Part shown: positions 8,674 through 12,791 of the stretch, piece by piece
Numbering within the stretch: position 1 is the stretch's first letter
How the letters are laid out: every line of letters begins with the position of its first letter
Assembly: GCA_039819165.1 (NCBI GenBank)
Contig: JBCBSM010000001.1
Coordinates: 1,178,001-1,242,000 of the forward strand
Source of the DNA: Planctomycetota bacterium
Lineage (GTDB): Bacteria; Planctomycetota; Phycisphaerae; Phycisphaerales; UBA1924
Length of the DNA stretch: 64,000 nt
Direction: 5' to 3'
Position numbers and translations under genes: made by a program
The notes under the pieces: generated by a model
Databases searched by the model: none
Told to the model about the DNA's origin: nothing
What the model saw: only the letters and a program-made list of their open reading frames with translations

Positions 8674-9840
8674 ATGCCGCCCCGCCGCGTCGAGGTCGCC
8701 ACGCCGCAGGCCCGCTACGACGTGCTGATCGGCCACGGTCTTCTGGACGAGTTGGGCACGCTCGCGCACGAGCGCCTCGGGCCGCTGCGGGCCGCGTGCG
8801 TCTTCGAGGATCTCGGCGTACCGGCCGGGCTCCGCGATGCGGCGGCGGAGTCGCTCGGTGGCGCGGCGGTCGGCCGCTACGACTTCGCGCTCGATGAGCG
8901 ATCCAAGTCGATCGAGACCTGGTCGGCGATGCTCGCGGCGCTGGCCGAGCGCCGCATCGAGCGCGCCGGCGACGCCGTCTTTGCCATCGGCGGCGGCATC
9001 CTGGGCGATGTCGCGGGCTTCGCGGCCGCCGCCTACCGCCGCGGCGTGCCGATCGTCCAGTGCCCCACCACGCTGCTGGCGATGGTCGACGCCTCGGTGG
9101 GCGGCAAGACGGGCGTCAACCTGCGGCACGCAACCGACGGCGGCGAGACGCTGCTCAAGAACTTCGTAGGCGCCTTCCACCAGCCCGCGCTCGTCGTTGC
9201 CGACGTCGATGCGCTGCGATCGCTCGGCGACCGCGACCTCGCCTGCGGCCTGGCCGAGTGCATCAAGCACACGCTGATCGCCCCGGCAACGGACGGCCCG
9301 GCCTCGCTCGGGTGGCTGCTGGATCACGCCGACGAGATCCGCGGCCGCTCGCCCGCGGTGCTCGCCGACCTGGTGTCCGCCCACGTGTCGATCAAGGCCC
9401 GCGTCGTCGCCGGCGACGAGCGGGAGCGGGCCACGGGCAACGAGCCGGGCCGCCGGGCGCTCAACTTAGGTCATACGTTCGCCCACGCCATCGAAGCCCT
9501 GGACGCGGTCCGCGTCGACGGCGACGGCGGCCGGGACCACCCCCGCCACGGCGAGGCCGTGGGCCTGGGCCTGATCGCCGCCACCCGACTGGCAGAGATC
9601 CTGGACGCCGCACCTCCGCAGCGCCGCGAGGAAGTCGAACACGCACTACGGTCGGTGGGCCTGCCGACGAGGCTCGCGGAGGCACCGTCGGCGGACGCCC
9701 TCATCGACGCCATGCACCAAGATAAGAAGGCGGCCGGGGGCGTTCTTAGGCTGGTGGTGCCCACGGCTGGCGGCGTGCGGATCGCCGACGCACCGCCAGC
9801 CGACGCCCTCGAGCGGGCCTGGGCTGCGGTTATCCCGTAG
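8674..9840 (+). CDS. aroB: 3-dehydroquinate synthase
   Basis: Second step of the shikimate pathway, converting DAHP to 3-dehydroquinate with NAD+ and a divalent metal. It is 388 residues, slightly longer than E. coli AroB. Visible motifs are FAIGGGILGDVAGFAAAAY (NAD-binding), PTTLLAMVDASVGGKTGVN, the metal ligand region AECIKHTLI, RRALNLGHTFAHAIEA and the later DKKAAGGVLRLVV. ATG at 8674 follows rsfS by 3 bases. This is the last gene of the lpxA-aroB run; a 156-base gap then precedes the ParA-type gene. Confidence 0.95.
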   Translation: MPPRRVEVATPQARYDVLIGHGLLDELGTLAHERLGPLRAACVFEDLGVPAGLRDAAAESLGGAAVGRYDFALDERSKSIETWSAMLAALAERRIERAGDAVFAIGGGILGDVAGFAAAAYRRGVPIVQCPTTLLAMVDASVGGKTGVNLRHATDGGETLLKNFVGAFHQPALVVADVDALRSLGDRDLACGLAECIKHTLIAPATDGPASLGWLLDHADEIRGRSPAVLADLVSAHVSIKARVVAGDERERATGNEPGRRALNLGHTFAHAIEALDAVRVDGDGGRDHPRHGEAVGLGLIAATRLAEILDAAPPQRREEVEHALRSVGLPTRLAEAPSADALIDAMHQDKKAAGGVLRLVVPTAGGVRIADAPPADALERAWAAVIP

Positions 9841-9996: not shown

Positions 9997-11463
9997 ATGC
10001 GCACGATCGCCATCGTCAACCAGAAGGGTGGTTGCGGCAAGACCACCACCGCCATCAGCTTGGCGGGCGCCCTGGCGGCCCGGGGCCGCCGCGTGCTGCT
10101 GGTCGACATGGATCCCCAGTCGCACTGCGCCACGGGCCTGGCGATCCCCGAGGCTCGCATCGAGCAGGACGTCGGCGACGCGATGCTCGCCGACGACCCC
10201 GTCCGCCTCGACCGCAACCGCCTGATCTGGCGAGTTAGCCGCAACCTCGACCTGCTGCCCAGCCGGATGCGGCTGGCCGGCCTCGAGGCCAGCCGCGGCG
10301 GGCTCGCCGCCCTACCCGACAAGGACAAGCGGCTGGCACGGGTGCTGGCGGCTCTTTCGGGCTACGACGACACCATCATCGACTGCTCGCCGTCCATCGG
10401 CTTGCTGACCTACAACGCGCTGTGCGCCGCGGGCGAGGTGCTGATCCCCGTCGAGACCAGCTATTTCGCCCAGCAGGGCGCCGCCAAGCAGGTAGCCACG
10501 CTGCACGCCATCGCCCGCCGCATGGACCGCAAGCCGGCCCACTGGATCCTGCCGACCATGTTCGACGGCGACGCGGCGCTGCCCCGCGAGCTTCTCAGCC
10601 AGCTCCGCTCGAGCTTCGGCGCTGAGGTCTGCCCCGTCGTCATCCGTCGGGACGACAAGGTCCGCGAGGCGGCGACCTTCGGCCGGCCAGTGGGCGAATA
10701 CGCACCCGAGGCCCCCAGCGCACGGGACTACGCCGACCTGGCCGAATGGGTCCTAGGCGATCGGCAGGCCCCGCCCCTAGCCGAGCCCGAGGCTCCGGAG
10801 ATCCAGGTCGCACGCGTGCCTGCACCTCATCGATCGCCCGGATCGCACGTGCCGGTGCCCGAACCAGTGGCGGCCGGAGTTCCTGCGCCGCTCGCGGCCC
10901 CACCGCCGCAGGCCGGGGTTGCGCAGGTCACCCAGCCCGCCGCCGGCACGTCGGCCGCCGAGGTCGCCCGGCGTGCCGTGCAGTGGATGGAGAGGACCGA
11001 CCAAGCCAGCGAGCGGACCACCGAGCACAACGGCGAGCCAATCCAGCGGCGCGAGCCCTTGGCCGATGTCGCTGCCAACTCGGCCGGCGACCCCACCACC
11101 GAACTCGAGCGTCTGCTTCTCGAACGCGTGGGCCAGGAGAGCTTCGGCGTGCACGCGAGCGACGGGGCCGCCTGGGTGGTGCAGCCGCTGACTCTGGGCC
11201 GCTCGATCAGCGTGGCGGGCGAGTTCAACCGCTGGTCGCCCGTGGCCCATCCGCTTCGGGCCATCGAGCGGCTGGGCGTCCACGCCGCCCGCATCGCCCT
11301 CCCACCCGGGCGGCACGCGTACCGGCTCATCGTCGATGGCCTGTGGACCGCCGACCCGTTCAACCCCAACGCCGTAACCAACCCGTTCGGCGAGCCCAAC
11401 AGCATCATCGAGATCGCCGGCCCAGACGGGACCGGCCGCACGCATCCCACGTCGGCCGCGTAA
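9997..11463 (+). CDS. ParA-family ATPase fused to a C-terminal CBM48/AMPK-type glycogen-binding-like domain
   Basis: A 488-residue fusion protein. Residues 1-255 are a ParA ATPase: NQKGGCGKTTTA gives the deviant Walker A with signature Lys10 and Lys15, VLLVDMDPQSHCATGL is the A' region and TIIDCSPSIGLLTYNAL is Walker B. Residues about 265-380 are a Pro/Ala/Glu-rich linker. Residues about 385-475 look like an E-set CBM48 domain (ISVAGEFNRWSPVAHPLR, LPPGRHAYRLIVDGLWTADP, NPFGEPNSIIEI). ATG at 9997 begins the ATPase directly. The next gene follows after 47 bases. ParA proteins position DNA or protein complexes; the sugar-binding role is inferred from fold resemblance. Confidence 0.85.
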   Translation: MRTIAIVNQKGGCGKTTTAISLAGALAARGRRVLLVDMDPQSHCATGLAIPEARIEQDVGDAMLADDPVRLDRNRLIWRVSRNLDLLPSRMRLAGLEASRGGLAALPDKDKRLARVLAALSGYDDTIIDCSPSIGLLTYNALCAAGEVLIPVETSYFAQQGAAKQVATLHAIARRMDRKPAHWILPTMFDGDAALPRELLSQLRSSFGAEVCPVVIRRDDKVREAATFGRPVGEYAPEAPSARDYADLAEWVLGDRQAPPLAEPEAPEIQVARVPAPHRSPGSHVPVPEPVAAGVPAPLAAPPPQAGVAQVTQPAAGTSAAEVARRAVQWMERTDQASERTTEHNGEPIQRREPLADVAANSAGDPTTELERLLLERVGQESFGVHASDGAAWVVQPLTLGRSISVAGEFNRWSPVAHPLRAIERLGVHAARIALPPGRHAYRLIVDGLWTADPFNPNAVTNPFGEPNSIIEIAGPDGTGRTHPTSAA

Positions 11464-11510
11464 CGCCGACCGCCCGGAGGATCCGGGTCGCACGCGACGG
11501 AGCGCAACCC

Positions 11511-12791
11511 ATGCCCACCGACCTGCGGACCACCGACCAGCGCCCGCGGATCCGTCCCAGCATCCGGCCACCCGCGGCGGCGGACGCGCACGATGACGTC
11601 TCGGACGAGCTCGCGAGCCTGTTCCTCGGCGAGCACGACGCCGCGACGCATGATCACCACGAAGACGACGGGGCGCCCGACGATGCCGACGCCGCGATCG
11701 AGCTGCTGGTCCTGGGCAACCTGCCGGTATTCGCCGGCGCATGGGCCAGCCAGTACGCCCGCGAGCGCTCGGTCGCATCCAATCGACCAATAGCATTGCT
11801 CTCGCTCGACGACGACGAGGGGCGGCTCGATCTCTTCGGCCTGGACGCCGACGCCTCGAACGAGCCGCTGCGGTCGCACGCAGCGCTGCCCGACGCCCTC
11901 CGCGATGCGCGGCGCCGCGGCGCCAGCCTCGTCGTCCGCCTGCCCGCGTCGGAGGCCTCCTGGCTCGCCGCCGAGCGGGCCTCGGCGTCCGTGACCGTGC
12001 TCACCGGCGCCGACGATCCGGCCATCGTCGGCGCCTACCGCACCCTCAAGGCCATCTCGCAGGATCTCGAATCCGGGGATGGGCCGGCGATGCGGACGGT
12101 CATCGCGGGGTCCGAGGACGCCGACGCCGGCCGCGCGGGCGAGAAGCTCCGCGCCGCGGCGATGCGCTTCCTAGGCCTGGAGGTCGAGGTCGGCGCTCCG
12201 CTGCAACGCATCGACGCCGGACGCTCCGCCGAACTCTACTGCGGGCCCAAGCCCGAGTGGGCCGACGTGCTCGACGTCATCGAGGCCTTCCGCGAGATCC
12301 CCGAGATCACCCGGCCGCCAGTTCCCCCGGCCAACACAGAGGCAGCCGACCATGACACGCCCGAGCCAGCGGCTGTCGTGGCGGAGGAATGTGAGTCGAT
12401 GAACGGTCGCGCTCGTCCGATCCGGACGGGCGATGCGGCGTCGCTCGCGGCCGCGCTGGACCTTGAGGCCATCGACATCGACTGTCCTTACGCCCGATCG
12501 GTGGTGCTCGCCGTCGACGCCCGGGGCACGATCCACGCCGTCGGCCGGGCGGACGATGCCGAGGACGCGGCGTCGGCGATCCGCGACCTCGTCATCGCGT
12601 CCAGCTGGCTGCGGGACCACACCGAGCTGGTCGCGTGCGCCATCGGCCGGCCGCTGCAGCCCAAGCCGTGCGAGCGGCACGTCGTGCTCCGCGATGCCCG
12701 CGGAGCGCTCGCGCTCGCACAGGGCGAGCTGCGAGTCCACGCGGCCATATTCCGCGACGCCACGTGCGTCGGCGTGTGCGCACTGAACTAG
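11511..12791 (+). CDS. MinD/FlhG-like protein lacking a P-loop (putative partner of the ParA fusion)
   Basis: I do not recognise a named family for this 426-residue protein. Its layout resembles a MinD/FlhG ATPase. LLVLGNLPVFAGAWASQYA stands where Walker A should be but has no GKT. PIALLSLDDDEGRLDLFG matches the A' strand. DPAIVGAYRTLKAIS and a later EKLRAAAMRFLGLEV resemble the C-terminal part of FlhG. Residues 1-60 are acidic and His/Asp-rich. After a proline-rich break near 275, the last 130 residues form a separate domain (RSVVLAVDARGTIHAVG). It sits directly after the ParA-CBM48 gene on the same strand, so a shared function is likely but unproven. Confidence 0.55.
   Translation: MPTDLRTTDQRPRIRPSIRPPAAADAHDDVSDELASLFLGEHDAATHDHHEDDGAPDDADAAIELLVLGNLPVFAGAWASQYARERSVASNRPIALLSLDDDEGRLDLFGLDADASNEPLRSHAALPDALRDARRRGASLVVRLPASEASWLAAERASASVTVLTGADDPAIVGAYRTLKAISQDLESGDGPAMRTVIAGSEDADAGRAGEKLRAAAMRFLGLEVEVGAPLQRIDAGRSAELYCGPKPEWADVLDVIEAFREIPEITRPPVPPANTEAADHDTPEPAAVVAEECESMNGRARPIRTGDAASLAAALDLEAIDIDCPYARSVVLAVDARGTIHAVGRADDAEDAASAIRDLVIASSWLRDHTELVACAIGRPLQPKPCERHVVLRDARGALALAQGELRVHAAIFRDATCVGVCALN

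Follow-up and report, generated by a model that had tools for sequence, protein, structure and literature searches.

A Soj-Type ParA ATPase Joined to an AMPK-Type CBM48 Domain in Phycisphaerae: a Possible Glycogen-Positioning Protein

Introduction

ATPases of the ParA/MinD type place DNA and several protein cargos, as passages of PMC10241942 describe. Here we analyze a locus at which an ATPase of this type is joined, within a single protein, to a domain related to the glycogen-binding domain of AMPK. The locus (9997-12791) lies in a stretch of 64,000 nt, hereafter called the window, which spans positions 1,178,001 to 1,242,000 of contig JBCBSM010000001.1. It consists of the fusion gene (9997..11463, + strand; 488 amino acids, a complete open reading frame (ORF) with ATG start, stop included) and, on the same strand and separated by 47 bases, a second gene that we call gene 2 (11511..12791, + strand; 426 amino acids, ATG start). 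Labels with G denote genomes, G000 being the window's own, and labels with L denote loci obtained from scans. A preliminary description of this DNA had proposed that the pair forms a two-component, sugar-binding positioning module, perhaps for glycogen bodies or another polysaccharide.

We know of no ParA-type ATPase that places glycogen. In E. coli, the old pole is where glycogen tends to gather; in a csrA mutant it builds up there, keeps the chromosome out and brings division of the old-pole cell to an end (from parts of PMC4836754). How a cell shares out its glycogen thus has consequences. Many Phycisphaerae carry the fusion, and to judge from their sequences these cells may place or share out their glycogen stores actively, a question that the fusion makes testable. 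No description of the fusion was found among the listed titles and abstract openings from the open-licence PMC literature searched, where the search term 'ParA' also catches words beginning with 'para'. A genomic survey of the class names glycogen as a predicted substrate; in its main text, the terms ParB and MinD are absent and the 'para' matches shown are author names (PMC11266412).

Results

The Fusion Combines a Soj-Type ATPase With an AMPK-Type CBM48 Domain

The N-terminal part of the fusion (residues 1-255; 9997..10761, + strand) is a ParA ATPase, in agreement with the preliminary description, and is of the Soj type. Pfam family AAA_31 (PF13614) matches residues 1-177 at 7.4e-40, and ParA/Soj chains from the PDB match residues 2-248, with 8ray_B as the best at 6.3e-40. 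The structure model of the fusion has a mean predicted local distance difference test score (pLDDT) of 83.6, and VIA aligned its ParA domain to ParA 8ray_A at Z 36.3 over 250 residues with a root-mean-square deviation (rmsd) of 2.0, to Soj 2bek_B at Z 35.0 and to the integrative Soj model 9a6n_A at Z 37.2. For analysis of conservation we aligned the fusion of the window with those of 42 of the 50 loci that have a recognized start (43 rows). The deviant Walker A motif KGGxGK[ST], NQKGGCGKTT in the window, retains both lysines in all rows and is accompanied by the catalytic aspartate: K10, K15, D37, D39, and D129 occur in 43/43 sequences. A candidate DNA-binding surface carries a basic residue at position 223 in every row and at position 221 in 30 of the 43; in ParA proteins, the DNA-binding residues are often poorly conserved (part of PMC7229837). 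The window's genome holds three further ParA-like matches. One other ParA of this genome, at C1:2102287, is located near MurJ and a WecA/MraY-type gene.

The ATPase part is followed by a variable and largely disordered linker (residues 256-380; 10762..11136, + strand), for which the model gives pLDDT values below 50 across most of 287-317 and 341-364 and predicts helices at 319-342 and 366-378. Mean column entropy in the 43 rows is 2.77 bits for the linker (262-380) vs. 1.40 bits for the ParA part and 1.62 bits for the carbohydrate-binding module (CBM) at the C-terminus.

This C-terminal domain (residues 381-475; 11137..11421, + strand) had been likened to CBM48 and AMPK modules, and both the profile search and the structure prediction bear this out. 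PF16561 (AMPK1_CBM) matches residues 401-474 at 9.2e-10 with 39 bits, above the cut-off of 26.8, the best PDB match is AMPK beta-1 (1z0m, 1.3e-9), and the model contains nine strands at 384-473 with pLDDT mostly above 90. No other protein in the window's genome matches PF16561 at E 1e-3. W413, R443, and W450, which correspond to W100, K126, and W133 of AMPK beta-1 with arginine in place of lysine, are present in 43/43 sequences. Glycogen binding by AMPK is abolished by the W100G and K126Q exchanges and partly disrupted by W133L (part of PMC6274970). The conservation of these contact residues suggests that the fusion may bind glucan through its CBM. AMPK L146 and N150 are presumably glycogen contact residues as well, and the five AMPK-compared positions taken together are more conserved than random five-position sets from the CBM (0.0067), a value to be read with the caveats that two of the five positions are these presumed contacts and that structural residues are likewise conserved.

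Distribution of the Fusion

One CBM pattern, run against 84,980 species genomes, yielded at least 80 loci. CBM and ParA share one ORF in 54 of them, including L093 and L134, where part of ParA falls in another ORF; contig ends truncate 3, and the remaining 23, mostly from Nitrospira, encode other proteins. By record title, the closest loci among the matches listed belong mostly to Phycisphaerae or Planctomycetota, and the fusion is also present in the complete chromosome CP087563 (locus L071). Of 248 genomes of the class Phycisphaerae, at least 129 have a single match that covers both domains, a count made by hand and including matches interrupted by a stop. On reading, the fusion is also present in five genomes whose match was split or unlisted (G085, G061, G070, G087, and G093). 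For 140 genomes outside the class (of 149 in the phylum), none of the matches listed extends beyond position 338 of the 446-position model, i.e., into the CBM, and no separate CBM search was made there.

Some loci stand apart. L137:618-1697, from a record titled 'bacterium', encodes a shorter ParA-AMPK1_CBM protein of 360 amino acids (AMPK1_CBM 2e-14; 34% identical to the fusion of the window) that perhaps represents a separate or older form. L126, where gene 2 accompanies the fusion, comes from a record titled Vicinamibacteraceae isolate PLA1, which is perhaps mislabeled or a mixed assembly. Close relatives of the CBM occur without ParA at L114, L135, L141, and other loci, as two neighboring ORFs in Nitrospira and within longer proteins in Cloacimonadota and Ferruginibacter records.

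Gene 2 Encodes a MinD/FlhG-Like Protein Without a P-Loop

For the gene 2 product, Pfam gave no match below 0.03 and NCBIfam no family, and no Pfam family common to its 33 aligned orthologues was found. Its structure model (mean pLDDT 81.8) is confident at about residues 61-270 and 311-426, the latter forming a separate C-terminal domain (12441-12788, + strand). The best VIA match is FlhG 4rz3_A, with Z 12.0 over residues 60-238 (161 residues aligned, rmsd 3.7, 12% identity), followed by FleN 7ejw_B at Z 10.3. Foldseek also places FlhG first (E 4.2e-5), with low TM-scores of 0.21-0.36 over three FlhG rows. Judged from the model, the fold is sure only as a broader fold class, as GTPases of the signal recognition particle (SRP) follow at Z 8 to 9.6. 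For the C-terminal domain, EndoMS 5gke_A (Z 7.4 over 304-417) was too weak a match to use. A Walker A motif occurs in 0/33 sequences; its place mostly reads G-[HN]-L-P-(5)-W, built around an invariant proline and an invariant tryptophan. The earlier characterization of gene 2 as MinD-like and P-loop-less is therefore well founded.

Close to the N-terminus lies a short motif, [FY]DxLADLFL[GT] (residues 29-41; 11595..11633, + strand), in which F38 and L39 are invariant and D32, L34, and L37 are conserved at 90% or more of the 33 rows; a helix is predicted at 29-39. The motif is far better conserved than its surroundings and looks like a docking helix.

In a single-sequence query, gene 2 was found in 52 of 61 genomes, the window's own included, and at 42 of 54 loci it is recognized next to the fusion, weakly so at L110 and L089. 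Among 80 chosen near-complete genomes, 48 with and 32 without the fusion, gene 2 lies directly beside the fusion in 27 of the 48 and 8 kb distant from it in one (G279). Nine of the 32 genomes without the fusion gave weak gene 2 matches (best 8.7e-10), all within model positions 76-251, the MinD-like stretch. The pair thus recurs in related genomes, as the preliminary description had supposed, but a recognizable gene 2 is missing from many distant genomes that have the fusion, and the idea of an obligatory two-component module stands only in part. At some fusion loci that have no gene 2, the fusion is followed by another conserved protein (L124:8181-9584, L108:3148-4551, and L111:8907-10409); the single member scanned matched no Pfam family. 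We considered a diverged gene 2 here and rejected it: this is a different protein, with an apparent signal peptide by eye.

Glycogen Genes in Genomes With the Fusion

On another contig, the window's genome carries a glycogen gene cluster within about 11 kb (L144, G000:C2:343000-361500) that encodes GlgB (1.2e-280), a GT3 glycogen synthase (5.8e-165), a GT35 phosphorylase, a GH77, and a GH57-DUF3536 protein. No GT5 match was found in this genome, and its synthase belongs to GT3, a family best known from animals and fungi. GT5 and GT3 were searched in the 80 genomes, and GH13, GT35, and GH57 in one shared set of 48 genomes. Of the 48 fusion genomes, 47 have GT3 or GT5 at E 1e-3, in many cases as a weak GT5 match; the exception, G138, has TreS-maltokinase and GlgB, with no synthase identified. 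The presence of glycogen genes was rejected as a discriminator of the fusion, since GT3 or GT5 is near universal in genomes with and without it and decides nothing.

In 7 of 48 cases, a free-standing small relative of the CBM is located no more than 5 kb from a glycogen-gene match, vs. about 0.39 expected, a rough figure among the matches listed: the association was spotted first and counted afterwards, positions were transcribed manually, two cases come from one genus, and three of the five glycogen families were searched in 48 genomes only. At L158:2096-5413 (G152), a GT5-like gene, a GH57 gene, and a CBM gene follow each other on one strand. The CBM protein of this locus (119 amino acids, AMPK1_CBM 5.3e-16, 31% identical to the CBM region of the window) is possibly a bacterial glycogen-associated protein in its own right.

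Genes Around the Fusion

In the window, the fusion is flanked by aroB (3-dehydroquinate synthase; 8674..9840, + strand; PF01761 3.2e-35) and by gene 2, beyond which lies clpX; rsfS is also among the neighbors. aroB is the commonest upstream neighbor: 21 of 55 loci, counting that of the window, have this ORF cluster, and several contigs do not extend far enough to reveal the upstream gene. It is probably context and outside the mechanism. The canonical parABS layout, with parB directly beside parA, was not found at the window locus, and gene 2 matches no ParB family in Pfam or NCBIfam. A role as a defense system was also considered and rejected, PADLOC giving weak P-loop matches only.

Discussion

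A Tentative Model for Glycogen Positioning

The positioning of glycogen bodies would be in keeping with the anatomy of the fusion. We tentatively favor, with a probability of roughly 0.38, the reading that the ParA uses its own tail to bind alpha-glucan and serves to position or partition glycogen on the nucleoid. As in other members of the family, ATP-bound dimers of the ParA domain would bind the nucleoid non-specifically, while the CBM48 tails, held on a flexible linker, would bind the outer chains of glycogen particles by means of the conserved contact residues. Hydrolysis of ATP would free the dimer, so that particles would be tethered, spread or moved on the nucleoid and would not pile up at one pole, and both daughters would inherit some glycogen. 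In genomes that have gene 2, the pseudo-ATPase domain and the N-terminal helix of its product may contact and regulate the ParA domain. The role of gene 2 would lie with the ATPase and not with the glucan, because it also accompanies relatives of the ParA that have no CBM. The fuller proposal, namely a dedicated machine for glycogen positioning and inheritance, in which the ParA grips the polysaccharide itself, a shell-less store is carried on the nucleoid and a dead MinD/FlhG-like ATPase regulates the process in part of the class, is slightly more doubtful than the simple reading.

Several observations weigh against glycogen positioning. We read ten further genomes of the order, mostly chosen for matches stopping short, and in eight of these (G029, G228, G054, G048, G042, G217, G264, and G022, none of which is among the 32 fusion-less genomes) an orthologous ParA, with matches of 1e-94 to 1e-123 and a frame of 334-388 amino acids, shows no CBM match in the stretch read. 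The CBM was therefore lost, or never gained, in some lineages. Gene 2 adjoins the CBM-less ParA in seven of the eight, all but G048, and thus goes with the ParA and not with the CBM. It follows that neither the ParA nor gene 2 needs the CBM in order to function, and these relatives lowered our confidence in glycogen positioning from 0.45 to the value given above. G050 and G282, both outside the 43-row alignment, keep the CBM (7e-22 and 1e-19) without the second tryptophan. Within the alignment, the position of AMPK L146 varies (27 F, 11 Y, 5 other of 43) and that of N150 is N in 34 of 43. Moreover, gene 2 was not recognized at 12 of the 54 fusion loci, of which a few lie close to a contig end. 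GT3 or GT5 is equally common in the absence of the fusion (31 of 32 genomes), and no glycogen gene occurs among the conserved neighbor clusters scanned around it. Finally, in the known systems, as far as passages of PMC10241942 describe them, a separate partner and not the ATPase binds the cargo, and the ParA partners have a basic, disordered N-terminus that binds the ATPase. A basic stretch of this kind was not seen in gene 2, with a net charge of -1 over 25 residues in the window and of 0 to -5 in the 10-11 residues preceding the motif in 31 orthologues, true starts being uncertain.

Several CBM-less ParA proteins (L161-L168) end just past a helix that resembles a linker element, RAAELxxRARxL.

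Alternative Explanations

The main rival to glycogen positioning, although unlikely in our view, is that the fusion is a glycogen sensor. Binding of glucan by the CBM would switch the ParA and tune segregation or division to the carbon stores, with glycogen as signal and not as cargo. This would suit a CBM of the AMPK type, as glycogen inhibits AMPK via this domain (part of PMC6274970), and equally the Soj-like ParA part and a neighborhood of aroB, rsfS, and clpX without glycogen genes. An accessory sensory domain could also go while ParA and gene 2 remain, as in seven of the genomes described above. However, segregation need not rely on the fusion in a genome with three further ParA-like matches, and gene 2 matches no ParB family.

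It is rather improbable that the fusion organizes glycogen synthesis, i.e., gathers enzymes or initiation sites as BcsQ does for cellulose or PTST for starch, without granules being moved. The ParA part exceeds the cut-off of the broad Pfam family CBP_BcsQ (57.3 bits vs. 21.3) and BcsQ structures align to its model at Z 27, and CBM relatives do occur in rows of glycogen genes. ParA/Soj structures are nonetheless closer (Z 35-36), the NCBIfam BcsQ equivalog cut-off is missed (93.1 of 157.85 bits), and the conserved neighbors of the fusion include no synthesis gene.

Slightly less credit goes to the view that ParA together with gene 2 makes up a system for positioning or division that has another cargo, and to which the CBM is an optional addition gained or lost by lineage. 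Whereas the CBM-less orthologues and the gene 2 copies kept beside them are what this view predicts, the fusion spans many families of the class, far beyond the order and also without gene 2, and its CBM comes close to the ParA part in conservation.

We assign a small probability to the CBM being a protein-binding or structural E-set domain that binds no glucan. Two of the five AMPK-compared positions vary and the CBMs of G050 and G282 are degenerate, but the invariance of W413, R443, and W450, the above-chance conservation of the five positions, even with two of them only presumed contacts, and the relatives beside glycogen genes argue against this reading. That chance or faulty assembly joined two unrelated genes has a negligible probability, given the single ORF at 54 of the 80 scan loci (the others comprising 23 different proteins and 3 loci truncated at a contig end) and its presence in a complete chromosome.

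Comparison With Known Systems

The fusion shares the ATPase fold and catalytic motifs of the Soj/ParA partition ATPases but differs from them in its CBM48 tail, in a neighbor that is not a ParB, and in a score below the NCBIfam ParA_partition equivalog cut-off (100 bits vs. 180). With the glycogen-binding domain of AMPK beta it has in common the CBM family and the residues W100, K126 (here Arg), and W133; in the fusion, however, the CBM is joined to a ParA ATPase and not part of a kinase complex. BcsQ is likewise a ParA/MinD-fold protein tied to a polysaccharide. It is less similar to the ParA of the fusion than Soj and, to our knowledge, has no sugar-binding domain. PTST2, a plant protein of starch granule formation, resembles the fusion as a non-enzymatic CBM48 protein of alpha-glucan granules but resides in the plastid and has no ATPase.

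Gene 2 resembles FlhG and FleN in its MinD-like fold over residues 60-238, but lacks the P-loop and has, in addition, the C-terminal domain 311-426 and the motif [FY]DxLADLFL. With McdAB and other ParA/MinD positioning systems, in the form in which passages of PMC10241942 present them, the locus shares a ParA-type ATPase with a neighboring partner gene, and its task, if it places a cellular body, would be of the same kind. In contrast to these systems, the putative cargo-binding domain sits here on the ATPase itself and the partner is a MinD-fold protein without a P-loop. The fusion represents a ParA design with a built-in sugar-binding module, gained or lost by lineage.

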